DNA from: a bacterium
GTDB taxonomy: Bacteria; Verrucomicrobiota; Kiritimatiellia; CAIKKV01; CAIYGI01
Assembly (NCBI GenBank): GCA_025360745.1
Contig: JANYBP010000033.1
Span: 1-64,000, forward strand
Reading direction: 5' to 3'
DNA length: 64,000 nt
The position numbers were made by a program, and so were the translations under genes. Shown here piece by piece: positions 1 to 18,300 of this stretch (the stretch's first letter is position 1; every line of letters begins with the position of its first letter). Below the pieces are notes generated by a model. That model searched no databases, had not been told where the DNA came from, and saw only the letters and a list, made by a program, of their open reading frames with translations.

Positions 1-66
1 GGGGCGTCCACTCCTTGCCTATGTACTACAAAACCCTTTATTCTCAAGCCTTTCCGCTTCCAAGTA

Positions 67-131
67 TTCCGCTTTTGCTCGCTCCACGCTCTTTCCGCTT
101 TTGCTCGCTCCAACTTTCCGCTTTTGCTTTT
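67..131. repeat. Short direct repeat TTCCGCTTTTGCTCGCTCCA, two full copies plus one partial
   Basis: ttccgcttttgctcgctcca at 67-86 and 93-112, partial ttccgcttttgct at 116. Confidence 0.85.
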
Positions 132-220
132 CCCCCGACACCACGAAACCAGCGTTTGGGCTACCGCCTGATACTCTTGATCGAATTTCAGAAAATCGCG
201 ATGGAACGATTCAGCCCGGT

Positions 221-1477
221 TTACTCGGGCAGCCAGCCGCGGCGGACGGCGTCTTCGATCATGGCGGAGGCGAAGGCCCAGAGCGGCGCGGCGCCCTCTT
301 CCATGTGGCGGTTGCGCGCCCGCACCTGGGCGGCCTTGACGCCGTGATCGCGCCAGGCCACGCCGCCGGTGGCATAGTTGTGCATGATCGGCTGCAGGCG
401 GTCGAGCGCCGCCGCGAAACGCGCCTCGGGCGTTTCCCGCGCCTCGAATTCGTCCCAGAGCGCCCGCATGGCGACGGCCTGATCCGGCGGCAGCAGCGCA
501 AACAAACGCGCCGCCGCCCGCTGTTCGCGGGCGGGCTTTTCGGCATTGCCGCGTTCGTCGTAGCAGTAGGTGTCGCCCGCGTCGATTTCCACGATATCGT
601 GGACCAGCGCCATGCGGATCACCCGCCCGAGGTCGAGCTGCGCCGGCGCATACTCCGACAGCAGCGCGGCCATCAGCGCCAGGTGCCAGGAATGTTCGGC
701 GTCGTTCTCGTAGCGCGAGCCGTCGGTCAGCCAGGTCCGGCGCACAATCTGCTTGAGCTTGTCGGCCTCGGCCACGAAGGCCATCTGCCGCGCCAGCCGC
801 GCGTTGCCCGCCGAGGGCAGTTCCGCGGGCGGTTCCTCGACGGGCGCGCCACGGGCGCGTTCGATCCAGCGCAGCAGTTCGCGCGCCACGGCGCGCTTGC
901 TTTCCAGCGGCAAGGGCCGCGGCGGCGCGCCCGGCGCCAGCAGCACGACGCGATTCGTGTCAACATCGAAGCCGGCGTCGGGCTGGGTCACATCGTTGGC
1001 GACGATCAGATCGAGACCCTTCTCGGCCAGCTTGCGCGCCGCCTCTTCCAGCATGTGATCGGTCTCCGCGGCGAAGCCCACGAAAGTCCGCGCGCCTTTG
1101 AGCGGCTTGATCGTCTTGAGGATGTCCGGTGTGGCCTCCAGCGCGAAGGCCGGTTGCGCGCCGCCTTTCTTCTGTTTCACCGCCGCGCACCGCACCGGGC
1201 GCCAGTCGGCCACCGCCGCGGCCATCACCAACGCCTCGCAGGCAGGCAGCGCCGCCCGCACGGCGGCCAGCATCTCCTCCGCCGAAGTCACACGCACAAG
1301 AGTCACGCCCCCCGGCGCGAGCAGCGCCGTCGGCCCGGAGACCAGCGTCACGGTGTGGCCGCGCCGCGCCGCCTCGGCGGCCACGGCGTAGCCCATCCTG
1401 CCGGACGAGCGGTTGCTCAGAAAACGCACGGGGTCCCAGAATTCGCGCGTCGGACCGGCGGTGACAAGTAGTTGCAT
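221..1477 (-). CDS. coaB: Phosphopantothenate--cysteine ligase (CoaB/DFP C-domain) fused to a C-terminal HD-domain hydrolase
   Basis: N-term [48 protein letters not shown] and AAVADWRP are CoaB motifs; C-term [17 protein letters not shown]...[15 protein letters not shown] is an HD_3-type motif. ATG at 1477, six nt after the PIN stop. Confidence 0.88.
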
Positions 1478-1483
1478 GGGCAA

Positions 1484-1933
1484 TTACTCAGTTTGTAAAA
1501 GTTGTTGCGGAAAGTCCGACTGTTGCTCGATCGTTTTCAAATAATCGGACGGCGTGACAATCTGAATGCCTCTAAAAACACCCAGGTCGAGCAGGTGATG
1601 GTCCCCGGAGACAACAAAATCCGCCTTCGATTCCAAGGCACATTCCAGAATCATATTGTCGGCTGGATCCGCGACAACGGCCTCGATGCTGGCGGCGGGA
1701 TCGATTACATCGCAGACAGCGTGCAGTTCCTCGATAAGCTGGAAGGACTGCTCAGGGGAAAATCCGAACTTCGGACGCCGCAGCACTTCCCGCGTTTCAT
1801 CCAAAATCGCGAACGACAGGGAACAGTCGACCGCGCCATTGATGACACGTTCCAGCACATCTCGCGGCGGCCCTCCGAATAACACCGCGGATATAAGCAC
1901 GCTCGTGTCCAGAACGATGCGCTGTCGCTTCAT
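1484..1933 (-). CDS. PIN-domain putative toxin (COG1569-like)
   Basis: [30 protein letters not shown]...[30 protein letters not shown]; internal ATG chosen because it begins the PIN fold. Confidence 0.82.
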
Positions 1934-1938
1934 CGGTT

Positions 1939-2181
1939 TCAGGCCTTCTGTTGGCGGTATGCCTGAACCTCCGAAGCAACGTCCGCCTCGGTCAGTTTCC
2001 CGCGCGCGACCACGGTTTTGCCATACGCAAAAATCCTGCCCCACCGCCGCTTGCGGTCGATGTAAAGCCGGGCGGCCTCCCGAAGCAGTTCAGAGCGTGA
2101 CCGTGATTCGACCTTTGCGATTTTGTCTATGTCAACCAACAGACTTTCCTGGAAGGAAATATTGACCGTAGTTGTGGCCAT
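1939..2181 (-). CDS. Ribbon-helix-helix (CopG-like) antitoxin
   Basis: MATTTVNISFQESLLVDIDKIAKVESRSRSELLREAARLYI; directly upstream of the PIN gene. Confidence 0.78.
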   Translation of the reverse strand: MATTTVNISFQESLLVDIDKIAKVESRSRSELLREAARLYIDRKRRWGRIFAYGKTVVARGKLTEADVASEVQAYRQQKA

Positions 2182-2242
2182 GTTCACCTCGCTTTCAGCC
2201 GATACACTATACAATCTTTGTATATGCAGTCAAGCGCGTTGT

Positions 2243-3148
2243 TCAGCTGGTTGCCCGGCGCTTCATTTCGGCGTCCATGTCGGCGATCTTGGCGCGCACG
2301 ACCGGCTCGGCCTCGTCGTAGATCGCGCGGATTTCCGGGTCGGTGAAGCGGTAGGTCCGTTCCTCGAAGGTGGTGGTCGCGAGGCGGTCGAAAAGCCGCT
2401 GTTGGGCCTGCGCCAGGTCCTTGCCGTAGATGTGGTAGGAGTCGGCGTGCCAGGTCAGCCGCGCCAGCCGCACCGGCCGTCCGCGGCGGCGCGCGACCTC
2501 GGCGGCCACGACCTGCTGGTTGAACTGGATGAAGCCGAACATGTTCATGAAATTCGCGCCCCAGGCGTCGTTGCTGCGGAAGCGCACGTTGCAATTGAGC
2601 CAGCCGGCGCCGTTCTCGTCGTCCATGATGCGATACCAGAGCGACTGCAGGCAGGGCGGATCGTAACAGTCGAGGTCGGTGTTCGGCATCCAGGTGATCA
2701 TCTGCGCCTGCCGCGTAAACGGCTGCTCCACCAGCTTGGCGATCACCGCCTCGACCTGGTCCACCTTGAAGGGTCCCGTTTCGACCTGGCCGCCGTCGCG
2801 CCGCTCGCGCCAGACGCCGTAGTTCGCCAGCCTTCCGTGATAGGTGTACTCCCAGCGCGTGTCGGCGGGATCGTTCGCGCACCTGACCCAGTGGTCCTTG
2901 ACCCCCTGCAGTTCCATCACATATTCGCGCAGGTCTTCGATGCCGCCGGGAAAGGCCTTGTGAATCATGGGCTCGGCCAGCGGATCCTCGACGGTGATGT
3001 CCATCGTCGCATCCAGGCTCAGCGGGTCGCCGGGCTTGTCGTATTGCGTGGCGAAGCGCCCGCCGTGCTCGTTGAGCGCCACCAGCGCCCGTTCGTAGGC
3101 CTGCGCCAGCGACTGTCCGCTCACATGCAAAACCGGTATACTCTTCAT
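2243..3148 (-). CDS. Divergent thymidylate synthase family protein
   Basis: PPC near the active-site position; NVRFRSNDAWGANFMN keeps the ThyA R-S-x-D-x7-N spacing; HADSYHIYGKDL. Confidence 0.72.
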   Translation of the reverse strand: MKSIPVLHVSGQSLAQAYERALVALNEHGGRFATQYDKPGDPLSLDATMDITVEDPLAEPMIHKAFPGGIEDLREYVMELQGVKDHWVRCANDPADTRWEYTYHGRLANYGVWRERRDGGQVETGPFKVDQVEAVIAKLVEQPFTRQAQMITWMPNTDLDCYDPPCLQSLWYRIMDDENGAGWLNCNVRFRSNDAWGANFMNMFGFIQFNQQVVAAEVARRRGRPVRLARLTWHADSYHIYGKDLAQAQQRLFDRLATTTFEERTYRFTDPEIRAIYDEAEPVVRAKIADMDAEMKRRATS

Positions 3149-4476
3149 GTCTGGTCTTTCCCTCCCGCCGTTTCCGAAAGCATCCGTTCCAGCGCCGTCA
3201 CGCTGCGCGCCAGGGCGCCGCGCTTTTCCGCCACCAGCGCCGCCGCGCGCGCGCCCAGCGCGGCGCGTTCCGCCGGATCGTCCAGCAACCGCCCGACCGA
3301 CTCCGCCAGTTCCCGCGCCGACGCCACACGCAGCAGCGCGCGCGCCGCGTCGAACTCGGCGGCGATTTCCGGAAAATTTTCAAGATGCGGTCCCGTCAAG
3401 ATGGCCTGGCGCTCGACCGCCGGCTCGATGACGTTCTGGCCGCCGGTCTGCGTCAGGCTCTTGCCGACAAACACCACCGTCGCCGCCGCGTAGTATCCGC
3501 GCAACTCGCCGGTTGTGTCCACCAGCAGGATATCGGGCGCCGCCGCGCCGGCGCCGGCCTCCGGCCAGGTCGCCAGCTCTTGCTTGCAGCGGACCGTAAA
3601 CCCGGCGGCCGCGATCGCGTCCAGCACTTCCTCGCGCCGCTCGGCGTGGCGCGGCACGAGCACCAGACGCAGCGCCGGAAAACGCGGCCGCAGCGCGCGC
3701 AAGGCGTCGAGCAGCGCCCGCTCCTCGCCAGCCCAGGTCGAGCCGCCCACCAGCACCGGCGCGCCGGCCGGCCAGCCGAGCCGCGCCAGCGAGGCGCGCG
3801 CGGCGGCGGCGGTGGCGGGCGCCACGGGCGCAAGATCGTATTTTAACGATCCCGCCAGCACGACGCGTGCCGCGGGCACGCCGAGGTCGCGCCAGCGCGC
3901 CCCGTCCTCCGCCGTCTGCGCCAGGATCAGCCGCAACCCCTCCGCCGCGCGCCGCACGAAGGGCCGCAGCCGGCGGTAGCCGCGGTGCGAACGGGCGGAG
4001 ATGCGTCCGTTGACGATGGCCGCGGGTATCCCGCGCGCCGCGCAGGCGCGCAGCATGTTCGGCCAGAACTCGCCCTCGGCGAGAATCAGGGCCTCCGGCC
4101 GGATCGCGTCGAGCGCCCGCCGCACGACCGCCGGAAAGTCGGCCGGGTAGTAGATCAGCACATCGCCCGCTTCCACGATCTCCTCGGCCGTGCGATGGCC
4201 GGTGGAGCTGGTTGTGCTGAGCACGAAGGATGAACCTGGGTGGCGCGCGCGCCAGGCGGTCATGAACTGCTTGGCGACAAAGACCTCGCCCACGCTCACG
4301 GCATGAATCCAAATCCGCCGCCGCGCTCCCAGCGCCGCGCGCACGTCAGGCGCATAATGCCCGAGCCGCTGAGCGAAGTCTTGGCGATAGCCGCCGCGCC
4401 GCCGCATGTGCAGCAGGAACCCGGGCAGCATCAGCAAATATACGCTCGTAAACAGCAGGTTATAGACGAACCACAT
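3145..4476 (-). CDS. waaA: 3-deoxy-D-manno-octulosonic acid transferase
   Basis: RIWIHAVSVGEVFVAKQF, ILAEGEFWPNML, IVNGRISARSHRGYRRLRPF, VGKSLTQTGGQNVIEPA. Confidence 0.93.
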   Translation of the reverse strand: MWFVYNLLFTSVYLLMLPGFLLHMRRRGGYRQDFAQRLGHYAPDVRAALGARRRIWIHAVSVGEVFVAKQFMTAWRARHPGSSFVLSTTSSTGHRTAEEIVEAGDVLIYYPADFPAVVRRALDAIRPEALILAEGEFWPNMLRACAARGIPAAIVNGRISARSHRGYRRLRPFVRRAAEGLRLILAQTAEDGARWRDLGVPAARVVLAGSLKYDLAPVAPATAAAARASLARLGWPAGAPVLVGGSTWAGEERALLDALRALRPRFPALRLVLVPRHAERREEVLDAIAAAGFTVRCKQELATWPEAGAGAAAPDILLVDTTGELRGYYAAATVVFVGKSLTQTGGQNVIEPAVERQAILTGPHLENFPEIAAEFDAARALLRVASARELAESVGRLLDDPAERAALGARAAALVAEKRGALARSVTALERMLSETAGGKDQT

Positions 4477-4563
4477 GTCGCTGCTTCCCAAAACGGCGTT
4501 CCGGCGCGCTCCGCCCGATTTTTCGAGGCCTGTCCGGCTTGCGCCGGACGGCAATGCCAGAGG

Positions 4564-5295
4564 TTAAATCCCCGTGGCCAGACGGACGGCCAGACGCTCG
4601 GGCAAACCGGCGGCGCGGATCTGCCGCTGGGCGCTGGCGACATCGTAGACCACGCGCCGCAATTCCACCACGCGCCCCGCCAGATCGTAAATTCCGTACG
4701 AAGCCCGCGGGTCTCCGTCGCGAGGCTGCCCGACACTGCCAACATTGATGAAATACTTTTTGCCGAGGGTGATGATCACCCGCAGCGTGTTGAGCCGCGC
4801 GATCGCGCCGCTTTTTTCGAAAATCACCGGCTGGTGGGTATGGCCGTGGAAGCACACCGACGTGCTCTGATAACTGAAACTGGATTCGGCCTCCAACTCG
4901 TCGAACACGTAACCCCACTTCTCGGGCATGTCGAGCGTGCTGTGAACCAGCAGGAAGCCGTTGACCATGCGTTTCATGCTCAAGGCGCGCAGGAAGGCTA
5001 TGTTGTCCTCGCCGATCTGCATTCTGGTCCAGTCCACGACATTGGCCGCCAGGGGATGGAAATCGCGGGCCAATTCGTCGTGCGCCACATAGTGATCGTG
5101 GTTGCCGCGCACGCAGATCACGCCCAATTCCCGCACGCGTTGCAGGGTTTCGGCCGGATTGGCGTTGTAACCCACCAGATCGCCGACGCACACGTAATCG
5201 GTGGCGCCCTGCTCCCTGGCATCCGCCAAAACCGCGGTCAGCGCCTCCAAATTTCCGTGAATGTCACCCAGTATCGCGTATCTTTTCCCCGCCAT
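4564..5295 (-). CDS. Calcineurin-like metallophosphoesterase (YfcE/DUF2437-like)
   Basis: MAGKRYAILGDIHGNLEAL, VCVGDLVGYNANP, VRGNHDHY, FHGHTHQPV. Confidence 0.9.
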   Translation of the reverse strand: MAGKRYAILGDIHGNLEALTAVLADAREQGATDYVCVGDLVGYNANPAETLQRVRELGVICVRGNHDHYVAHDELARDFHPLAANVVDWTRMQIGEDNIAFLRALSMKRMVNGFLLVHSTLDMPEKWGYVFDELEAESSFSYQSTSVCFHGHTHQPVIFEKSGAIARLNTLRVIITLGKKYFINVGSVGQPRDGDPRASYGIYDLAGRVVELRRVVYDVASAQRQIRAAGLPERLAVRLATGI

Positions 5296-5314
5296 GACAA
5301 ACTCACGCCCCTTC

Positions 5315-5992
5315 CTAAACTTTCAAAATGGCCGCCGCGACGGCCAGATCCTCCGAAAACGTGATTTTGATGTTGGCCCAGGACGAAGGCACCAGATGCA
5401 CCGCCGCGCCTGAGTGCTCGATCAACGAGGCCTCGTCCGTCATCGCCGCCAGGCGCTTGTCCAGCGTCCGATAGGCTTTCCGTAAAGCTTTGCAATTGAA
5501 AGTCTGCGGCGTCTGTACCGCCCACAACTTGTTGCGGTCCACCGTGCGCGCCACCAGGACGCCGTGATCCACTTCCTTGAGCGTGTCGACCACTTTGACC
5601 GCCGCCACTCCCGATCCGCAGCGTTTGGCCGACTGCACCGTCCTGCCGATCAGATCCGGCGTAACGCATGGACGGCTCCCGTCATGCACCGCCACCAGCA
5701 GCGCCTCGTCCCCCAGCGCTTCGAGCCCGTTCAGGACCGAAGCCTGGCGCGTCGCGCCGCCGGCCACCACCTTCGCCACCTTGGACAAACCGAACATGCG
5801 CACAAGCCCGATCGCCGATTCGACGCGTTCCTTGCGCACCACCACAACCACCCGGTTGATCTCCGGGCACTGCTCGAAGGCCAGCAGCGACCACGCCAGG
5901 ACGGGACGTCCGCCCAGCGACAAAAAGGCCTTGTCGACCCCAGTCCCCATCCGTTCGCTTTTACCGGCAGCCACAATCACAGCGCCTACCAT
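5315..5992 (-). CDS. ispD: 2-C-methyl-D-erythritol 4-phosphate cytidylyltransferase
   Basis: AVIVAAGKSERMGTGVDKAFLSLGGRPVLAWSL, AVHDGSRPCVTPDLI, WAVQTPQTF, TDEASLIE. Confidence 0.93.
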   Translation of the reverse strand: MVGAVIVAAGKSERMGTGVDKAFLSLGGRPVLAWSLLAFEQCPEINRVVVVVRKERVESAIGLVRMFGLSKVAKVVAGGATRQASVLNGLEALGDEALLVAVHDGSRPCVTPDLIGRTVQSAKRCGSGVAAVKVVDTLKEVDHGVLVARTVDRNKLWAVQTPQTFNCKALRKAYRTLDKRLAAMTDEASLIEHSGAAVHLVPSSWANIKITFSEDLAVAAAILKV

Positions 5993-6119
5993 GGACGTCT
6001 CCCCGGCCGTACGAATTGCGCGACGAAACCCGATCCGTTTTCACGCTCGGCATTGACGTACGAACCCTAGGGAACTTTGTACTCGCTGTCAGGCGGCGGG
6101 TCAAGCTAGAATTCAAATC

Positions 6120-6722
6120 ATGCCGTTAATTCTGGCCTCGCAGTCCACCGCGCGCGCGGCGTTGCTAACCGCCGCCGGCTATGTCTTTATCCAGGAAACG
6201 TCCGGTTTTCCGGAACCGCCCGCCGCTCCCGGCCAGGCCTGGGAAACCCATCTGCAAGCCCTGGCGGCGGCCAAGGCCGGCGCCGTGGCCGCCCGCCATT
6301 CCAAAGACTGGGTGCTGGGCGCCGACACGGCGCTCTGGTTCGACGGCGCCTGTCTTGGCAAAGCCGCCGGCGCCGCCGCGGCCGAGGCCATGTTGATCCG
6401 CCTGGCCGGGCGCAAGCACGCCATCGCCACGGCCGTATGCCTGATCGCCCCCGCCGTGAAAAGTTCCGTCGCACGCGCGCGGCGTCTGGGAATCGCCCGC
6501 GCCACGATCGAACTGCGCCCCTGGTCCCCCGCCCAAATCCGCCGTTATGTTTCCGCCGTGCGCCCGTTCGACTGCGCCGGCGCCTACGCCCTGCAGGGCG
6601 GCGGCGCCTCCATCGTCGCCGCCCTCCACGGCGACCCCTCCACCGTCATCGGCCTGCCGCTCACGCTCGTCGAACGCCTCCTGCGGGAGTCGGGCTTCCC
6701 GCGCGAGACGGCACTCGTTTGA
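6120..6722 (+). CDS. Maf-family nucleotide pyrophosphatase
   Basis: MPLILASQSTARAALLTAAGY, GADTALWFDG, YALQGGGASIVAALHGDPSTVIGLPL. Confidence 0.88.
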   Translation: MPLILASQSTARAALLTAAGYVFIQETSGFPEPPAAPGQAWETHLQALAAAKAGAVAARHSKDWVLGADTALWFDGACLGKAAGAAAAEAMLIRLAGRKHAIATAVCLIAPAVKSSVARARRLGIARATIELRPWSPAQIRRYVSAVRPFDCAGAYALQGGGASIVAALHGDPSTVIGLPLTLVERLLRESGFPRETALV

Positions 6723-6822
6723 CTTCTGAGGTTTTTGCCGAATGGGGCTAAACAACGCGAAGATCGCTGAAAAAGGCAGTTTCTTTGGGTTCCGTGGAAT
6801 CTTTCGCGGTCCGCCGGAAATT

Positions 6823-7239
6823 ATGAGGGCAAAAAACATCGTGGACACCTTTAGTCACAAGAAACGTTCGTGGATTATGGCTCAGGTCAAATCAACCGGC
6901 AACCGGTCAACGGAGGTTGAATTTCTATCAGTGCTCCGTGCAAACAAGATCACTGGGTGGCGCAGGAAGTATGCGTTGTTCGGGAAGCCGGATTTCGTTT
7001 TCAAAAAGGCGAGGGTTGCCGTGTTTTTGGACGGGTGTTTCTGGCATGGCCACCCCCGTAAGTGTCGCATGCCCCAGGCAAACAAGGACTACTGGAAGCA
7101 GAAAATCGCTCATAACATCATTAGAGACCGGCGTGTAACGAGAATCCTCCAAGAAAAGACTTGGAAAGTCATAAGAATCTGGGAAGATTCCATCCAGAAA
7201 CCATCAACCGTGGCACGCCTGAGGAAAGCATTGGATTGA
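6823..7239 (+). CDS. vsr: Very short patch repair endonuclease (Vsr)
   Basis: MAQVKSTGNRSTEVEFLSVLR, GKPDFVF, VFLDGCFWHGHPRKCRMPQANKDYW, RDRRVTRILQEKTWKVIRIWE. Confidence 0.92.
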   Translation: MRAKNIVDTFSHKKRSWIMAQVKSTGNRSTEVEFLSVLRANKITGWRRKYALFGKPDFVFKKARVAVFLDGCFWHGHPRKCRMPQANKDYWKQKIAHNIIRDRRVTRILQEKTWKVIRIWEDSIQKPSTVARLRKALD

Positions 7240-7343
7240 ATAGCGAGAAGAAAACCGCGACAGTGTGTTCGCTGGAATCGGACTCGCCCCCGCTACAGCA
7301 TTTTCAACTTTAGCCGTCCACATTATTGTCTGGCGCCACGCGG

Positions 7344-8873
7344 ATGAAAAGCAAGCGACAACTACAGCGTAAAGACTGGCCTGAAGAAAAGATTCTTCGG
7401 AAAGGGGTAGAATCCCTTTCTAACTTGGAACTTCTGGCCACCTTTATCGGCAGTGGCGTCAAAGGAGCGGACGCCAAGAGTATTGCGCGAGCGATGCTCG
7501 CCAAACATGGTCCAGGACTTTTGACCCTTGGTGCTGGATCTCTGATGGAATTCAGGGGCATCGGAAAAACAAAGGCAGCGAAACTCAATGCTTTGTTTGA
7601 ACTAGCCTGTCGCCTCAGCGTCGGAGAGACGGGAAAGAACCTCGCCGACAGAATAGCGCAGGTAGCCGAGGGCGGACTACAATATTACCTTGCAGAACTT
7701 CTGGCCCCACCCGCGTGTTACACCCATGCTTCAGCCCCCGCGAAAGCATCCAATCGAACATGTATCGAGTTTTTCGCAGGCATTGGCCTCGTCAGGTATG
7801 CGCTCGCAAAGTGCGGTTGGTCCGTCGTGTACGCGAACGACATGGATGCAGGAAAGCAACGGATGTATTTGGACCATTTTGAAGACGACGGCACATTCGA
7901 CATTAGAGACATTCATCATGTTCCACCGCGCGAGGTGCCCTGCGCCACGTTGGCTACGGCCTCTTTCCCATGTACGGATCTTTCGCTTGCAGGCGGGCGC
8001 AAGGGACTCGAAGGAAAACACTCGTCAGCCTTCTGGGGTTTCGTTGACATAATCGACAAGATGGGCACGCGTCGACCGCCAATTGTCTTGCTGGAGAATG
8101 TTGCTGGCTTTCTTTCATCCCACGGCGGTAAAGATTTTGAGGATGCGCTTCTGGCGATGAACAAATTGGGATATTATGTTGACGCTTTCATCGTTGATGC
8201 CGCACACTTTGTGCCGCAAAGCCGAAAGCGTCTGTTCGTTATTGGAATCCGCGGAATGGCGGAATCATCGAACGACTTCGGTTTGGCTTTGGCCCAAACC
8301 GAACTACGACCGTCTGCACTGGCGTCGTTCATTGCGTCGCATCGTCACATTCGCTGGCGGCTCCGGTGCCTTCCGAAATTGCCCGCCTTGGGAAAAGCTC
8401 TTGATTCACTCATCGAAGCTGTGCCAGCAACGTCCACTCTGTGGTGGCCTGAAGAAAGAGCGGCCTATCTTCTGGGACAAATGAGTCCAAAACACAGGGA
8501 AACGGCTGAACGCATGATAGCCGCACACCGTGTTTCGTACGGAACCGTATTCCGGCGTGTGCGTCATGGCAAATGCATGGCTGAACTCCGTAGTGACGGA
8601 ATCGCCGGTTGTCTGAGAACACCGAAGGGCGGAAGCGCAAAACAAATTCTTTTTGAAGCGGGACGCGGAATGCACCGTGTACGCCTCATGACTCCGCGGG
8701 AATGCGCGCGACTGATGGGCTCAGACGATTTCACAATAAACGTGAACCACGATCAGGCGCTATTCGGTTTCGGCGATGCCGTCTGCGTGCCCGTCATAGA
8801 GTGGATTGCCGAGCACTATTTAAACCCGGTCGCCGAATCGCTTGAACCAGATCAAATCGCCGCCATCGCGTAA
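7344..8873 (+). CDS. DNA (cytosine-5) methyltransferase with N-terminal RadC/UPF0758-type helix-hairpin-helix domain
   Basis: N-term LQRKDWPEEKILRKGVESLSNLELLATFIGSGVKGADAKSIARAMLAKHGPGL...FRGIGKTKAAKLNALFELACRL (RadC N-domain); C-term FFAGIG, ATASFPCTDLSLAG, VLLENV, PQSRKRLFVIGIRG, RLMTPRECARLMGSDDF, FGFGDAVCVPV (C5-MTase motifs). Confidence 0.9.
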   Translation: MKSKRQLQRKDWPEEKILRKGVESLSNLELLATFIGSGVKGADAKSIARAMLAKHGPGLLTLGAGSLMEFRGIGKTKAAKLNALFELACRLSVGETGKNLADRIAQVAEGGLQYYLAELLAPPACYTHASAPAKASNRTCIEFFAGIGLVRYALAKCGWSVVYANDMDAGKQRMYLDHFEDDGTFDIRDIHHVPPREVPCATLATASFPCTDLSLAGGRKGLEGKHSSAFWGFVDIIDKMGTRRPPIVLLENVAGFLSSHGGKDFEDALLAMNKLGYYVDAFIVDAAHFVPQSRKRLFVIGIRGMAESSNDFGLALAQTELRPSALASFIASHRHIRWRLRCLPKLPALGKALDSLIEAVPATSTLWWPEERAAYLLGQMSPKHRETAERMIAAHRVSYGTVFRRVRHGKCMAELRSDGIAGCLRTPKGGSAKQILFEAGRGMHRVRLMTPRECARLMGSDDFTINVNHDQALFGFGDAVCVPVIEWIAEHYLNPVAESLEPDQIAAIA

Positions 8874-8913
8874 GGATGACTAGAACAACGTCATCAAAGA
8901 CAAGGAGAGTCAA

Positions 8914-9867
8914 ATGCCGAAGAGGAAGGCAGTACCAGTTCGATCGAGTCTTCACAAAGCGTTGGAAACCTTTGCCCTGGAGCACAACGTCAATGAAAAG
9001 GGATTTCTCTGCGTCGGCTTGTTGATCACGAATGCCGCGAAGTCTATGACCTTTCCAATTGCCGCTGAGGCGTTTATGGCGGAAAGTCGCGGCCAGGTTC
9101 GTGGTCTTGGCAAGGGCGCTGTCCAGCGCGTCCTTCGCGATCACGGAATATCTCGAGTGCTGGCTGAAGAGGGTGGTCGCACCAGTCGCGGCAGTATTCG
9201 GAACATGCAGGTTTACGTGTCTTTCTTAAACAAAGCGGCATCGCTGGAAGGTTTCAACCTTGACGACGTGGAGGCCTGGTGGATCGAACGAGTAAGAAAA
9301 TTCTTTTCAAGTAAACCATTCCGACTGCGCGTCGATCCGGCGCTGTCGTTGCGTGTCGCCGTGCGCGATATTTTGGAACAAGCAGAACGGCGCCAAAAAG
9401 AACAAAGTGGCACGATGTTCGCTGGTGCGGTCATGCAACATCTCGTCGGCGCCAAACTTGAAATCGCGCTTAATGTCGCGCTTGAACAACACGGATTTTC
9501 GGTGGCGGATGCGCCGGGCGATCGCGCAGGCGACTTTCTGATTGGCGATGTGGCGATCCATGTTACGCGAACTCCAACGGAAGCGCTTATCCGAAAGTGC
9601 GTGGCGAATCTCGAAGCAGGCTACCGTTGTTTGATCGTAACAACACAGAAGGGCGCCGTATCTGCAGAAAGCCTGGCAGAACCACAGGGTGTTGGAGACC
9701 GAATTGACCTTTTTGAGTTCGAACAGTTCCTAGCGACCAATATCTACGAATTGGGCAAGTTCGAACAGAAAGGCCGAAAAGTTACCGTGATGGAACTGGT
9801 AGAACGTTACAACGAAATCGTGCGGACTAACGAGACCGATCCGAGTCTTAGCATCGTCCTTGCGTAA
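8914..9867 (+). CDS. DUF4928-like protein, candidate partner restriction endonuclease
   Basis: Directly follows the C5 MTase on the same strand; C-term GDRAGDFLIGDVAIHVTRTPTEALIRKC... nuclease-like beta segment; family assignment from memory. Confidence 0.55.
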   Translation: MPKRKAVPVRSSLHKALETFALEHNVNEKGFLCVGLLITNAAKSMTFPIAAEAFMAESRGQVRGLGKGAVQRVLRDHGISRVLAEEGGRTSRGSIRNMQVYVSFLNKAASLEGFNLDDVEAWWIERVRKFFSSKPFRLRVDPALSLRVAVRDILEQAERRQKEQSGTMFAGAVMQHLVGAKLEIALNVALEQHGFSVADAPGDRAGDFLIGDVAIHVTRTPTEALIRKCVANLEAGYRCLIVTTQKGAVSAESLAEPQGVGDRIDLFEFEQFLATNIYELGKFEQKGRKVTVMELVERYNEIVRTNETDPSLSIVLA

Positions 9868-9944
9868 GATTGAAGCCGCCGAACATACGGCGTTTTAGGT
9901 TCGCAAGTCCGTGAAAACTGCGCCGGCTATGAACGGGAGAAGAC

Positions 9945-10233
9945 ATGACGATGTTTATGGACGAGGGCTTCCTCTGCTCAGAGCTGAGCCGGTGGATTGA
10001 CACTTGTCATAAAAAAACGCGAAACATTTTCCCTGGCGGCTTTAGTCACCCAGTTTGGCAGAATCCTTCTCACGGCAACAGTCAGCGTCATCACCGCGCT
10101 GGAGTCGGTAAACAGTATGTTTGAGTTACACCGCGACGAGGATTTAGAAGTTTTAAAAGGGAACCTGAAAGAGTTGTCCGGTCTTAATATAGAGCAACCT
10201 GAAATAGGCGCCAAAACATCGCCTGCAAACTAA
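9945..10233 (+). pseudogene. Small ORF apparently split by a frameshift at a 7-A run
   Basis: ATG 9945 after a ggagaag SD-like stretch gives MTMFMDEGFLCSELSRWIDTCHKK; shifting at aaaaaaa 10011-10017 continues RETFSLAALVTQFGRILLTATVSVITALESVNSMFELHRDEDLEVLKGNLKELSGLNIEQPEIGAKTSPAN. Confidence 0.4.
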
Positions 10234-10342
10234 TTTGTTCCCGTTCGCAGTTTGAGAAGAAACGTTTTCGTTAGGCGCTGGCTACGGGAGAAAACCATGC
10301 GTGACCACACGAACTCAATCCGCAATGCCTGACACTTTTCCA

Positions 10343-10384
10343 CATTCATCCTTCAGCCTTCAGCCTTCAGTCTAATCAACCTGG
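10343..10384. repeat. 7-bp tandem repeat (CCTTCAG)3 with degenerate flanks, upstream of RR start
   Basis: cattcat-ccttcag-ccttcag-ccttcag-tctaatc-aacctgg. Confidence 0.85.
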
Positions 10385-10396
10385 ACTTTCCCTCCA

Positions 10397-11155
10397 ATGA
10401 GCCGTATCCGCATACTGGTCGCCGAAGATGACCGTCATATCCGGCAGGGATTGCTCGACACGCTCGACGGCGAGGGCTACGAGGCGCTGGGCGCGGCGGA
10501 TGGAAACGAGGCGCTGCGGCTCTTCCAGACGCAGCGCGCCGACCTGGTGCTGCTGGACATCATGATGCCCGGCCGCAGCGGCTTCGATGTCTGCCGCGAA
10601 ATCCGCCGCCGCGACACGCACACGCCGATCCTGATGCTGACCGCCAAGAACGAGGAGATCGACAAGGTGCTCGGCCTTCAACTCGGCGCCGACGATTACC
10701 TCACCAAACCCTTCGGCGTCCACGAACTGCTGGCGCGCGTCGCGGCCCTGCTGCGCCGCTGCCGGCGCGGCGACGCGGCGGCGGCGGCGGATGGCGGCGG
10801 CAAGACGGACAAACTGCCGGATGTCCTGACGATGGGCGCCGCCGAAATCCACCGCAAGACCTACACGATCCGGCGCGGACGCCAGACGGCGTCAGTCACG
10901 GCGCAGGAAATGCGGGTCATCGAGGCGCTGGCGCGCCATCCCGACGAAGCGCTCAGCCGCGACCGCCTGCTGAACGAGGCCTGGGGCGTGGACTACGCCG
11001 GCACCACGCGCACGCTCGATCAGCACATCGCGCAGTTGCGCAAGAAAATCGAGGCCGACCCCGGCGATCCGCGGATCGTCGTCACCGTGCATGGCGTCGG
11101 CTACATTTACCGTTTAACGACGGTTGGCCATGCGCCGCGAATGCATCCCGGATGA
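10397..11155 (+). CDS. OmpR/PhoB-type response regulator
   Basis: MSRIRILVAEDDRHIRQGLL, LVLLDIMMPGRSGFDVC, LTAKNEEIDKVLGLQLGADDYLTKPF, wHTH ending IVVTVHGVGYIYR. Confidence 0.94.
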   Translation: MSRIRILVAEDDRHIRQGLLDTLDGEGYEALGAADGNEALRLFQTQRADLVLLDIMMPGRSGFDVCREIRRRDTHTPILMLTAKNEEIDKVLGLQLGADDYLTKPFGVHELLARVAALLRRCRRGDAAAAADGGGKTDKLPDVLTMGAAEIHRKTYTIRRGRQTASVTAQEMRVIEALARHPDEALSRDRLLNEAWGVDYAGTTRTLDQHIAQLRKKIEADPGDPRIVVTVHGVGYIYRLTTVGHAPRMHPG

Positions 11156-11922
11156 AAAATCAGCGACCCGGCGGATAACGCGGCCGGGATGGTTTCTACG
11201 CTTCCCGTGAACAAAAGACCAGCCGCATCCAGAACGCAACATCCGATGGCATCTTCCGGCAGCGCGGCAACCATACTCTCCGCTTCGTTTAACAGTGCCC
11301 GCCATTTCGCGCCCAGCGCAACCGGATCGGGCGCGGTTCCGTCAAAGGCCAGCGTTTCGATTTCCTCACGCGAATAGTGGGCGGAGCGTCTGGCTTGATC
11401 CAAAATGAAAGCCGGGCTCAAGCCGGGATCCTTGCCGCACGCCGCCCAGACCAGGAAACCGAACGGCTGCAACTTTTCATGGCAGGCGATAGCATCGATC
11501 CAATCCCGCACCTCAACACGCCCGACCAGCGCCAGCACTTTGTTGGTGGCCAAATCGAACGGGTGCAGAGCCAATCCAAAGTCCGGATGCTCGATCAGAG
11601 GAAAAAAACGATAGGCGCTGTCCTGCACCCACTGGAGCAATACCCCGTCAGATCCTTTGGTAATTTCCGCCTCCACAAAGGTGGCGTATTCCCTCATCAC
11701 CTTGACCTCAAACCCTTTTCTCTCAAGGGTGATCCGGTCCGCCCGCCAAGACGCAAGCAACGCTTCCTGGGTATCGTGGAACAAATCGACATCGTACGAC
11801 CGTCGCGCCGTCTTCAGCAATTCGTTGAGCGCCGCGCCGCCGGCGACGTATTGCTCCCCGCGCGCCATACGCTCGTTCGCCAAGGTTCTGCAAACCGCTC
11901 TCTGGTATTCCGTTAGCGACAT
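11107..11922 (-). CDS. Nucleotidyltransferase (AbiEii/MNT-like), putative toxin of a two-gene module
   Basis: EQYVAGGAALNELLKTARRSYDVDLFHDT (GG...DxD NTase motif); convergent overlap with RR 3' end. Confidence 0.75.
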   Translation of the reverse strand: MSLTEYQRAVCRTLANERMARGEQYVAGGAALNELLKTARRSYDVDLFHDTQEALLASWRADRITLERKGFEVKVMREYATFVEAEITKGSDGVLLQWVQDSAYRFFPLIEHPDFGLALHPFDLATNKVLALVGRVEVRDWIDAIACHEKLQPFGFLVWAACGKDPGLSPAFILDQARRSAHYSREEIETLAFDGTAPDPVALGAKWRALLNEAESMVAALPEDAIGCCVLDAAGLLFTGSVETIPAALSAGSLIFHPGCIRGAWPTVVKR

Positions 11923-12107
11923 TTCATCAGCTTCCTGACCGTCACATATGTTTGCCGGTCCCCATACTTCTCAAGCAACCTGGCGCAACGGATCAAATCT
12001 CCGTCGGTCCGCGGAACGAAGTCCCGGCGTAGAAACCATCCGCAGGACAGACGGTTCCTCGCCCACAGTTCGCTTACTTGTTCACGGATGACCGTTGTGA
12101 GTTCCAT
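11913..12107 (-). CDS. Small protein partner of the nucleotidyltransferase
   Basis: MELTTVIREQVSELWARNRLSCGWFLRRDFVPRTDGDLIRCARLLEKYGDRQTYVTVRKLMKCR; 10-nt overlap with NTase start. Confidence 0.6.
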   Translation of the reverse strand: MELTTVIREQVSELWARNRLSCGWFLRRDFVPRTDGDLIRCARLLEKYGDRQTYVTVRKLMKCR

Positions 12108-12166
12108 ACAATAAACCTCTTCCAAACCCGGATTTTAACTAATCGTCATTCGCTTGTCAGTCCCAA

Positions 12167-12273
12167 ATCCTCGCCTAAGGACGTTGCGACCATGTTGCTG
12201 CCAAGTCTTTCGCCCTACGCCCACGCGGCGAAATGCTTATGGATGGAATGTCGGAACGACGTTAGGCGAGGAT
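12167..12273. repeat. Long imperfect palindrome, attC-like (integron recombination site candidate)
   Basis: atcctcgcctaa 12167-12178 pairs perfectly with ttaggcgaggat 12262-12273; inner GTTGCGACCAT vs ATGTCGGAAC pair with one extra base; central tttcgcc/ggcgaaa; GTTAGGC core. Confidence 0.5.
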
Positions 12274-12285
12274 CAGGGTCAGTAA

Positions 12286-12345
12286 CGGATCGTTGTCACC
12301 AAGCATGGCGTAGATTATATTTACCGGAAGGGGTCAAAGCGATGA
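12286..12345 (+). pseudogene. 3'-terminal remnant of a second OmpR-type response regulator
   Basis: In-frame RIVVTKHGVDYIYRKGSKR* matches RIVVTVHGVGYIYR of the intact RR; its TGA overlaps the next ATG (ATGA). Confidence 0.7.
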
Positions 12346-15300
12346 ACACAACGAACAGGTATTTTCCACCCATCGTTCGTTCCCGCCCCACGCGACGGCG
12401 GGGGATAAGCGGCATGGCGGGAATTGCGCAGGCCGCAGCTTTCCGTGTCGCGTTGTTCTGTGCGCTGGCCGGCGTCCGGAGCGCGGCGTCCGGCGCGGCA
12501 GAGCCGGAAACCGCGGCCGTCGATTATGCCGGACTGAAGGCGCAGGCCGAGGCCTATTACGCCCAGCATTCATACGCCCTGGCGCGCGATGCCTATCTGC
12601 TCGCCACCAATCTCGCTCCGTCCGCGCCCGAACGGCGTTGGACGGCCTTGCGCATCGCCGACACCCGCTGGCGCGCACAGGCCGGCAGCAAGACAGCCAA
12701 CGCCACGGCCTTCGAACAGGCGCAACGCGAACTCGACGCCCTGGTGCGCGACGTGAGCCGGGTCGAGGACCGCGACCGCGTCTGGGCCGAGGCGCAGGAA
12801 TCGCTGGGCGATTTTTTCTGGACCCGCCGCGATGGACGCGACTGGAATGCGGCCTGGCCGCGCTATGCGCAGGCGCTCGACTGGCGGGCGGGTCAAACGA
12901 ACAGCGCCGCCAACCGCGCGCGCTACCTGGAAATCGTATGGAAAGCCGCCGATAACGGACAGGACGACCCTTTCTATCGTTACGGCTGGTACGGCAACGC
13001 CCTCCCGACCCCCATCCTGGCAAACGCGGTAAAAGTGGCCCAGGACGAACCCGACCGCGCCCACGCGCACTATTTGCTGGCCATGCAGTTTATGCGCGGC
13101 AGCGACAGCTCCCAGCGCGCGCGGGCGCCGGATGAATTGGAAGCCGCCCAGGCGCCGGGTAAAAGCTGTCCCTGGTACGACGATGCGCTCTTTCATGAAG
13201 CCGAGTGGCTGGAGAACAACGGACGCATCACGCTCGACGACGACGGCAACTGGCAGCAGAAACCGGACTACAAAGGCGCCGCCACGCTCTACCGGCGCCT
13301 GCTCAAGGATTTCGCCAAGGGCGAATCGCGCTACGTCGAGGAGGCCCGCGAGCATCTCGACAAGCTCGTCAACCCCGGCCTCGGCGTCGCCGTCGGTTCG
13401 GTTTTCCTGCCCGGCTCGGAGGTCCAGTTCCAGCTCAGCAGCCGCAACCTGCCCGAGGTGCGCTTCAGCCTCCAGCATGTCGCGCTGCCCGAAGCCGTAC
13501 GCTTCGCGACCGGTGACAATTCGCTGCAGGAATGGACGCGCCATATTCCAAGCGGCGGCGAGATCGTCACCAACTGGAGCCGCGCCACCAACGGCAAGGG
13601 CGAGCATGTCCCGTTCAACGAAACCGTGCGCCTGGACGCGCCGCTCGCGCCCGGCGCCTACCTGCTCGAAGCCAGCTCCGGCACAAATCGCGCGCGCGAC
13701 GTGATCGTCGTCGGCGATATCGCGCTCGTGACAAAATGCAGCGGGCGGCAGCTCGTGGTCTATGCCTGCGATGCGCTTTCCGGCGTTCCCGTTCCCAAGA
13801 TGGCCCTGCGCTTGTGGATGCGCTACACGCAGGAGCGGCAGTCGCGCTTCGAGTCGCGCGATGGTGTGACCGACGAGGACGGCCTGGCGAAGTTCGACCT
13901 CAGCCGCAACCGTGACAACCGCGACAACACATTCCTGATTCTCGCCCAATCCGGCGGCCGTCAGGCCTTTACTTTCGCCGGGAGTTACTGGTATTCCCCC
14001 ACCCCGGACGCCTGGAAACTCTACGCATTCACCGACCGCCCCGCCTACCGGCCGGGCGACGAGGTGAAGTGGAAACTGATTGCCAGGCAAACCACCCCGG
14101 AGGGCGGCTTCCTCACACCCGCCAATCAGCCACTGCACTACCGCATCCGCGACCCGCGCGGGCAGACCATGCGGGAGGCGGACTTCACCACCTCCGCCTT
14201 CGGCAGTTACGCCGGCAGTTTCACGATGGCCTCCAATCAGCCGCTCGGCGAATATACGGTCGAGTTCTGGACCGGCCCCGGTCAGGCCGCGCACATCGGC
14301 CAGGCCGCGCTTTTCCGCATGGAGGAGTACAAACTACCCGAGTTCCGCGTCACCGTCCGCACGCCGGAGGAAAACGGCCGGCGGCAGACCTTCCGCCTGG
14401 GCGACACCGTATCGGCCGAGATCCAGTGCGAACTCTACGCCGGCGGTCCGGTGGCCAACGCCACTTGCGAGGTGCTGGTTCGCCAGCGCCCCTTCTTCCG
14501 CTATTGGCGGCGTCCCCATGACTTCGACTGGTACTACGCCGACATGCAGCCGAATTTCAACCGCGGCTTCAACGAGGGCGCCATCGTGAAACGCGAAACG
14601 CTGCGCACCGATGCCCAGGGACGCGCGCAGATCGCCTTCGACACGCCGCGCGACGGCGGGCAGGATCTGGAGTACAGCTTCGAGGCGCGCGTCACCGACG
14701 CCTCGCGACGCGAGATCGCCGGCGCGGGCATCGTCCGCGTCACGCGCCAGCGTTACTACGCCAACCTCGAGCCCGACCACCAGCTCTACCGTCCGCAGGA
14801 CCGCGTGCGCATGACCGTCAGCGCCGGCGACGCCAACGAACAACCGGTGCAGGTCGCGGGCGTGGTCAAGGTCCAGCGCAGCCGCTGGGTCGAAGTCTGG
14901 CGCTCGCCCGAGGGACGCGAAGTCACCGGTACAGCCCTGCGCGATGCGCGGCGCGCCTGCGCAACCTTCCCGCCCACCCCGGCGCCCGGCAAGGCGGGCT
15001 GGGCGCAACTGCGCTGCGGCTACGAATCGGAACCCGTGCTCGAACGTCCGCTCGACCTCGACAGCCAGGGCCGGGCGGAATTCACCTTCACGCCCGACCG
15101 CGAGGGCTACTACCGCGTCAGCTGGCGCGGCAAACAAAAGGGCGAACCCTCGGTCAGCGCCGAGAGCACCGTCTGGGTCGCCACCGAGTCCAGCGCCGAC
15201 CTGGGCTACCGCCACGGCGGCCTGCAGATCGTCGCCGACAGCGATACCTTCCGCGAAGGCCAGTCGGCCCCGATCATGCTCTCGGCCCCCAACGGCGGCG

Positions 15301-18300
15301 GCCATGTGCTTTTCACCGTCGAGACCGACGAACTGCTCGACGTGCAGGTCGTCAAAATGGACGGCGACGTAAAACTGCTGGCGCTGCCGATCCGCGCGCG
15401 GCATGTGCCGAACGTCGTGCTCGGCGCCGCGATGGTCGCCGACCGCGCGCTGCTGAAGGACGAACTGCCCATCGTCGTGCCACCCGTGCGCAACTTTCTC
15501 AAGCTGACGCTCGCCGCCGACAAGCCGCTCTACCTGCCCCGCGAAAGCGGCACATTGCGCGTCACGGCGCGCGATTCGAACGACCGTCCCGTGACCGCGG
15601 AGGTGGCGCTGTCGCTTTTCGACGAGTCGGTGACCTATATTCAATCGGAATATGCCGGCGACATCCGGCAATTCTTCTACGGCGACAAACGCCCGCACAG
15701 CGTGCAAACCGGCAGCAGCTTCCAGCAACGGCCCTATCTCAAACTGGTGCGCGAGGAAGGGCGGCTGATCGATGTCCGCGAGCAGCGTGCGCGCACCGAA
15801 CGGCAGGTAAATTGGGGAGGACCGGGCAACGAGGGAGAGCGGAGCGAAATCGACTCCGACGGGCCCATCGATGGCCCCTTGGTTATGCGGGGATTGTACG
15901 GCAATCGCAGGCGGGACTCCGGTTACAAGAGCGCCCCGGCCTTGCATGGCGCCGCCGGCGGCATGGTCATGGACGAAATGCGCGCGAAGAAAGACTCCCG
16001 TGAGGGGCAATCGGAGCAGGCTTGGTTCCGCCAGTCCGACAAAAAGGATCTCGCGAAAGGCGGGGAAAGCCCGGCCGTGGTTGTGCGCTCGGATTTCCGC
16101 GCCACAGCCTTGTGGCAGCCGGCTGTGCTGACCGATGCCAATGGCGAGGCCGTGGTCCCGATCGCCTTCCCCGACTCGCTGACGGCCTGGCGCGCCAGCG
16201 CCCGGGCTGTCACCAGCGGTCAGCAGTTCGGCAATACCAACCTCACCCTGCAGACCAAGCTGCCGCTGGTCGCGCGTCTTCAGACGCCGCGCTTTTTGGT
16301 GGCGGGCGACGAGGTGACCGTCTCCGCCGTCTTCAACAACCATACCGCTTTGCCCATGAAGGTGCTTCCCGAACTCAAGGCCGAAGGCATCACCCTGCGC
16401 GGCTGGCTGCGCGGCGGCGAACTGCAGCGCGAGGCGCCGGACGCCGTCGAGGTTCCACCAGACGGCGAAGCGCGCGTGGACTGGCGCGCCGCCGCCGAAA
16501 TCACCGGCGAGGCACGCCTGGAGCTGCGCGCCCGCGCCGGCTCTTACAGCGACGGCATGAGCGCGTCCTGTCCGGTGCTGGAGCATGGCGTTGAAACCAC
16601 CATCACCCGCTCGGGCCGCGCGCGGGGCGATGACGTACGCCTGCGCTTCGATCTGCCCAAGGCCCGCCGTCCGGGTTCCGCCACGCTTACGGTGCAGGTC
16701 ACGCCGAGTCTGGCCGTGACGATGCTCGACGCGCTGCCCTATCTGTTGGACTATCCCTATGGCTGCGTCGAGCAGACCATGAGCCGCTTTCTGCCGGCGG
16801 TGATCGTCAGGAAAACGCTCACCGATCTGGGGCTCAAGCCCGAGGCCGTGGCTGATCGCATCTTTGGCGGCATCGAGGCGGCAACCGTGGACAAGACCCA
16901 TCCGCAAGGCGCGCAAAACATGCAGCGGCTGTCGGACATCGTCAACGGCGGGCTGACCCGTCTCTACGACTTCCAGCACAACGACGGCGCGTGGGCCTGG
17001 TGGAAGGAAGGCGACAGCGACCGCTTCATGACCGCCTACGTGGTGTACGGCCTGGCGCTCGCCCGTCAGGCGGGTGTTGAAGTCAAAGCCGGTGTCGCCG
17101 AACGCGGCGCGGCCTGGCTGGACAAGGAACTGGTGGCGGAGGAATCCAACCCGGACATGCAGGCCTGGATGCTGCAAGCCCTGGCCGAATGGCAATTCGC
17201 GGCCGGCGCCAGAGAACCCAGCACCTTCCAGAACAAGGCCCTGGATAATGTCTGGACCCAGCGCGACCGGCTGAACGGCTGCACCCGCGCCCTGGCGGCG
17301 CTGGCCGCCAAACGCTTCGGCCGCGCCGATCAGGCCCGCGTGTATGTGGATAATCTGCGCAACGGCATTCAGGTGGACGACCGGCCCGACCAGTCCATCG
17401 TGCAGACCGGCGTGCCGCAGAGCAGCACCGGGCAAAGCTACGCCGTCACCGCCACCGCCCACTGGGGCGAGGACGGCATAGCCTGGCGCTGGTCGGACGG
17501 CGGTGTCGAAGCCACCGCCAACGCCCTGCGCGCCCTGCTGGCGGTGGATCCAAAGCATCCGCTCGTGGCGCCGACCGTGCAGTGGCTCGTCAAAAACCGC
17601 CGCGGCGCGCAGTGGAGCAACACCCGCGACACGGCGCTGGTTGTGCTGGCGCTGAACGATTACCTGCGCGTTAGCGGCGAACTGGGCGCCAGCGAGTTCT
17701 ACGAACTGCGCGTCAACGGCCAGCGCGTGGCCGAAGAACAGATCACGCCCGAGACCGTGCTCAGCGCGCCGGGCCGTTTCGAGATCGCCCCCGGGCTGCT
17801 GCGCGACGGCGCGAACGAGGTGCGCATCATGCGCATGGACGCGGCCAAGGGCGCGCTCTACGTTTCGGCCTGCGCTAAATTCTTCAGCCTGGAGGAGCCG
17901 ATTCCGCCGGCGGCCAGCGAACTTTTCCTGCAGCGCCACTATTACCGCTTCGTCGGCCATCCCAGTCTGCTCAAGGGCTGGGTCTACGAACGCCAACCGC
18001 TGACCGACCAGGGCGTTGTAACGAGCGGCGAGCGGATCGAAACCGTGCTGACGTTGGAGGTCAAGAACAACGCCGAGTACCTGATCCTGGAGGACCTCAA
18101 GCCCGCCGGACTGGAAGCCGTGGCGCTGCGCAGCGGCGAGGCGCTGGACGCGCGCGAACTGACCGGCGACGGCGCCGCGCGGACGCCCGACCGGCGCGAG
18201 GCCGGCGATTACACCGGCCGCACCCGCCGCGTGTATCAGGAACTGCGCGACCGCAAGCTGGCGATCTTCATCGACAAACTCCCGCAGGGCATCTGGGAAT

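Follow-up and report, generated by a model that had tools for sequence, protein, structure and literature searches.

A RadC-type HhH domain fused to a predicted C5 cytosine methyltransferase in a DUF4928 restriction-modification cassette of Kiritimatiellia

Type II systems of the DUF4928 family, such as those on Pseudomonas plasmid pNECK1 and on the Serratia AR_0027 plasmid, consist of a C5 cytosine methyltransferase gene followed by a DUF4928 gene, often accompanied by a gene for Vsr, the endonuclease that starts the repair of T:G mismatches resulting from deamination of 5-methylcytosine. An additional domain in front of a C5 methyltransferase is known from M.SsoII, whose N-terminal 70 amino acids are involved in autoregulation and are absent from the close homologue M.NlaX (PMC3039593). 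RadC (UPF0758), which combines an N-terminal HhH domain with the JAB domain that defines its activity, is widespread in bacteria and of disputed function (PMC5512222). The same source describes RadC-domain polyvalent proteins of mobile elements, in which RadC parts were recombined in conflict systems; those in the passages considered involve the JAB half, fused to HhH, ArdC-N and helicase domains and not to methyltransferases. The N-domain of RadC itself is presumed to bind DNA, judging from its HhH fold.

The window analysed here, a stretch of 64,000 nucleotides of contig JANYBP010000033.1 (assembly GCA_025360745.1, class Kiritimatiellia), contains a locus with the gene order of the plasmid systems. 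However, the plasmid-borne methyltransferases (CDS of about 382 amino acids) lack a RadC N-domain and match the protein from the window only from residue 142. Like M.SsoII, this protein carries a DNA-binding type of domain ahead of a C5 methyltransferase that is missing in close relatives, but the domain is the HhH domain of RadC instead of a regulatory one, and no conserved upstream operator is apparent in the two known copies. With RadC it shares the complete N-terminal HhH domain, whereas the JAB domain is replaced by the methyltransferase. The earlier note on this DNA had known of no such protein, and the open literature searched likewise yielded no description of a RadC-methyltransferase fusion. 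The fusion thus adds an accessory domain that we did not find described for C5 methyltransferases of Type II systems.

The fusion gene and its cassette

The features of the locus, all on the forward strand, are as follows.

6742-7239, forward: gene of a Vsr mismatch endonuclease (PF03852 and TIGR00632, both above cut-off)
7237-7285, forward: frameshifted remnant of the 5' end of an unfused C5 methyltransferase gene since lost (alignment with a related locus; translations)
7328-9868, forward: putatively mobile two-gene cassette of fusion methyltransferase and endonuclease (blastn against the second copy)
7344-8873, forward: fusion gene, RadC/UPF0758 N-terminal HhH domain, linker and C5 cytosine methyltransferase, 509 amino acids (one open frame; Pfam; second copy 89% identical)
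7359-7580, forward: RadC/UPF0758 N-terminal domain, residues 6-79 (PF20582, RadC and HhH profile matches, purifying selection)
7620-7748, forward: flexible linker, residues 93-135 (pLDDT <50; fastest-evolving part of the gene; RadC profile stops at residue 95)
7758-8816, forward: C5 cytosine methyltransferase domain, residues 139-491 (PF00145, TIGR00675, catalytic columns, M.HhaI fold)
8914-9867, forward: Type II restriction endonuclease of the DUF4928 family, paired with the methyltransferase (PF16280; PADLOC REase_II; 92% identical counterpart with the second copy)

The fusion gene starts with ATG at 7344, ends with a stop codon at 8871-8873 and is uninterrupted, as the earlier note had read it; Pfam hits, catalytic motifs and the exact coordinates bear out its description as a RadC N-domain joined to a full C5 methyltransferase. 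UPF0758_N (PF20582) matches residues 6-79 with 58.5 bits (cut-off 27.1; E 7e-16), and the HhH motif of this domain reads FRGIGKTKAAKL. A RadC profile made in this analysis from 35 sequences scores 55.7 bits, with a match that ends at residue 95 (position 7628), and the matches to NCBIfam RadC models are confined to their first ~88 positions. The JAB/MPN domain (PF04002) has no match anywhere in the 509 residues, in accord with the claim that the methyltransferase has taken its place. The protein is not a RadC: the N-terminal HhH half is present and the JAB/MPN half is missing. Alignments hinted at a remnant of the JAB half in the linker; the RadC profile gave no support for it and detected no RadC homology in the linker at all.

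DNA_methylase (PF00145) matches residues 139-491 with 151 bits (E 6.5e-44), the dcm model TIGR00675 scores 162 bits, and a PADLOC model for Type II methyltransferases 384.8 bits. Invariant columns of the alignment locate the catalytic signatures at FAGIG (144-148), C210 of the PC motif (codon 7971-7973), ENV (251-253) and QSRKR (292-296). Motifs I, IV (PC), VI (ENV), VIII (QxRxR) and IX/X, the last reaching about residue 490, are all present and in order, as in Type II C5 methyltransferases. Family membership predicts that the enzyme forms 5-methylcytosine. The genome of the window contains at least four other genes for C5 methyltransferases (among them G000:C49, C23 and C82), and its 5-methylcytosine pattern is thus likely to be composite.

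The earlier note had overlooked the Type II context of this architecture, namely the endonuclease gene next door and the vsr gene upstream. The gene directly following the fusion matches DUF4928 (PF16280, 194 bits) and the PADLOC REase_II model (E 6e-41), which classes it as a Type II restriction enzyme. Pairs of methyltransferase and DUF4928 genes recur in other genomes of the phylum and on proteobacterial plasmids; adjacency of the two genes and their joint conservation are as in a Type II restriction-modification system. The G+C content of the cassette is 0.53-0.54, versus 0.65-0.67 in the surrounding regions. The best reading of the fusion protein is that of a predicted modification enzyme belonging to a DUF4928 Type II (5-methylcytosine) cassette with horizontal mobility, i.e., a variant of a familiar system.

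Second copy, selection and history of the locus

A second, full-length copy of the fusion, 89% identical, is present in a Kiritimatiellaeota MAG from Lac Pavin (JAPLSY010000057; L001 in our numbering, the same record as G036/G404:C72). The class is shared by both genomes, whereas their orders differ. Its endonuclease is 92% identical to that of the window, and blastn aligned 7328-9868 with L001 5589-8127 (88% over 2543 columns); no other DNA similarity to L001 was found by blastn within positions 1-16000 of the window. Since an independently assembled MAG has the fusion at this level of identity between different flanks, neither chance nor a frameshift artefact accounts for it, nor does the assembly error that the earlier note had considered. 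In L001, the cassette lies downstream of a helicase-like gene (2749-5283; 844 amino acids), possibly an additional defence gene.

Comparison of the two copies gave dN/dS ratios of about 0.16 for the N-domain (dN 0.050, dS 0.317), 0.34 for the linker (dN 0.174, dS 0.505) and 0.10 for the methyltransferase domain (dN 0.045, dS 0.446). The N-domain, with 17 synonymous differences in 68.7 sites versus 11 nonsynonymous differences in 216.3 sites (p = 1.2e-5), is under purifying selection. Separate translation of the methyltransferase was ruled out, because the stretch that separates codon 84, part of the HhH domain, from codon 162 (L001: 161), beyond motif I, contains no ATG, GTG or TTG in frame in either copy. 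Barring an unusual start, the methyltransferase is therefore made only with its RadC head.

The match to the Vsr family starts at 6842, and the true start of vsr is probably near 6841. Genes of this type adjoin many relatives of the fusion methyltransferase. The vsr gene of the window shares 82.5% DNA identity with the one beside an unfused methyltransferase in the Lac Pavin genome (G036:C12), and this alignment continues past the vsr stop codon to 7285, covering the ~46 first bases of the methyltransferase gene. This part translates into LNSEKKTA... and then, in a different frame, FAGIGLAP. In isolation, this tail would be a modest match (an equal score is reached by 4 of 2000 random pieces of the window), and its weight comes from collinearity with the vsr match. 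What the window retains here is thus the beginning of an unfused methyltransferase gene that has been lost, with the fusion cassette directly behind it. This arrangement suggests that the mobile two-gene cassette replaced a resident methyltransferase at this locus. The vsr gene in L001 is on the other side and strand from the cassette, and its product shows 38% amino acid identity to that of the window. The unfused methyltransferase of G036:C12 (L023:6004-8241) is 58% identical to the fusion enzyme, and its gene overlaps vsr; a 235-amino-acid gene follows, the product of which resembles GIY-YIG nucleases by eye.

Distribution of the fusion and of RadC halves

Relatives of the same methyltransferase subfamily were counted at 19 places in 388 genomes of the phylum, at 13 in 346 genomes of the class (eight overlap), at nine in 294 genomes of the phylum of a Pirellulales MAG (L002), and on six viral contigs. 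Inspection of the N-termini revealed a RadC head in two of these about 39 proteins from two phyla and viral contigs. A search of the 388 genomes with the N-domain alone retrieved the same two, and no others, with a frame of methyltransferase length of this kind. Other phyla were covered via plasmids and phages and by scanning genome contigs with short peptides to find close relatives; among the matches listed, those on plasmids and phages begin at query residue 102 or later. When viral contigs were scanned with three queries (the fusion, its endonuclease and a RadC), no relatives were returned. The two fusions form a single clade with full support, which points to a single origin within the data examined; further examples may exist in other phyla or databases.

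Other long frames with RadC N-domain matches (G024, G240 and others) represent ordinary RadC, the open frames being inflated. Likewise rejected as fusions were the long methyltransferases of G756, G782 and G789, whose N-terminal extension of ~200 amino acids is a different one that has no Pfam match. Long methyltransferases paired with DUF4928 genes are located at L199:1523-3181, L200:1459-3147 and L201:1438-3147 and have an extension of the type VLVGTYK....

In two genomes of the same class, G756 and G782, the DUF4928 gene is directly followed by a gene for a RadC JAB domain that lacks the HhH part (PF04002, 97.7 and 85.3 bits, respectively). The JAB gene of G756 (L200:4078-4482) overlaps the DUF4928 gene by four bases. 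That of G782 (L201:4060-4938) lies immediately downstream, and its JAB domain is preceded by a domain that looks ASCH-like, with no Pfam match. The endonucleases of G756 and G782 are 64% identical, so the arrangement possibly goes back to one event. Neither fusion locus, in the window or in L001, has a JAB gene beside it. One restriction-modification family is hence associated with opposite halves of RadC in different lineages, a suggestive pattern from few loci, and the operons with the JAB half suggest that the association with RadC may be no accident. That RadC and DUF4928 systems are functionally linked, the RadC parts being working components which, e.g., sense forks or DNA ends and thereby give self DNA priority in methylation, appears doubtful; if true, it would provide a handle on the unresolved function of RadC.

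Possible roles of the HhH domain

In an AlphaFold2 model based on 14 sequences (mean pLDDT 78), both the N-domain and the methyltransferase are folded, the latter matching the M.HhaI fold (E 1.7e-18), whereas the linker (residues 93-135) has pLDDT <50, so that the model does not fix the relative placement of the two halves. A separate model of the N-domain contains helices at residues 44-61 and 75-93, as expected of an HhH, and its GxGxxxA hairpin is GIGKTKA (residues 72-78). Foldseek with this model alone found no significant match, the best being HhH domains of XPF/Hef (E 0.6). Profile searches with the N-domain, on the other hand, retrieved HhH domains of Topo V (4e-8), Hef (6e-5) and EndoIII (2e-4) and those of ComEA and DisA. 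The N-domain is a canonical HhH unit, with structure-specific binders (Hef/XPF, DisA) as well as general DNA binders among its kin. It is likely to bind DNA of one kind or another.

With moderate confidence, we favor the explanation that the modification enzyme of a Type II DUF4928 cassette has gained a tethered, largely sequence-independent DNA-binding arm. The N-terminus of the methyltransferase would have acquired the HhH half of RadC, joined by the flexible linker of ~40 residues, the disorder of which suggests a tether. The arm would bind duplex DNA with little sequence preference and keep the methyltransferase on it, raising residence time, processivity or the rate of protective methylation. 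The choice of the target site would be left to the catalytic domain alone. However, some 37 relatives manage without the arm, which is thus dispensable for the basic system. The fusion gives the RadC N-terminal half, kept under selection, an assayable job.

Next after such a grip on DNA comes targeting to structures, an idea of the earlier note, although we consider it unlikely: the HhH would prefer forks, junctions or nicks and deliver the methyltransferase to hemimethylated DNA fresh from replication, ahead of cleavage by the endonuclease. The nearest solved HhH relatives do include the structure-specific readers Hef/XPF and DisA, but the same match lists hold Topo V, ComEA and ligase, which bind DNA generally. 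Moreover, one methylated strand suffices for protection in a Type II system, so that targeting to forks is not obviously needed.

Autoregulation in the manner of M.SsoII is less likely. Here, the added domain would bind the promoter of its own operon and tune expression of methyltransferase and endonuclease, for which M.SsoII is a precedent (PMC3039593), the relatives without the N-domain corresponding to M.NlaX. Against it, the similarity of the two copies, the only ones available for this comparison, ends 16 bases upstream of the ATG, so an operator probably does not travel with the cassette. HhH domains, besides, are as a rule not sequence-specific binders.

The rarity of the fusion and its apparent single origin would also suit an accidental passenger, with no function beyond folding, that was kept since loss of the methyltransferase start beside an active endonuclease would be lethal. 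This is improbable, as the N-domain is under much stronger selection than the linker and nearly matches the catalytic domain in this respect. Docking, in which the N-domain would bring a partner such as a RadC JAB protein into the restriction-modification complex, is very improbable: it could draw on the complementary JAB genes behind the DUF4928 genes of G756 and G782 and on a complete RadC encoded elsewhere in the host genome (L025; G000:C52), but those JAB genes come from few loci and possibly a single event, the methyltransferases of G756 and G782 lack the HhH domain, and the fusion loci have no adjoining JAB gene.
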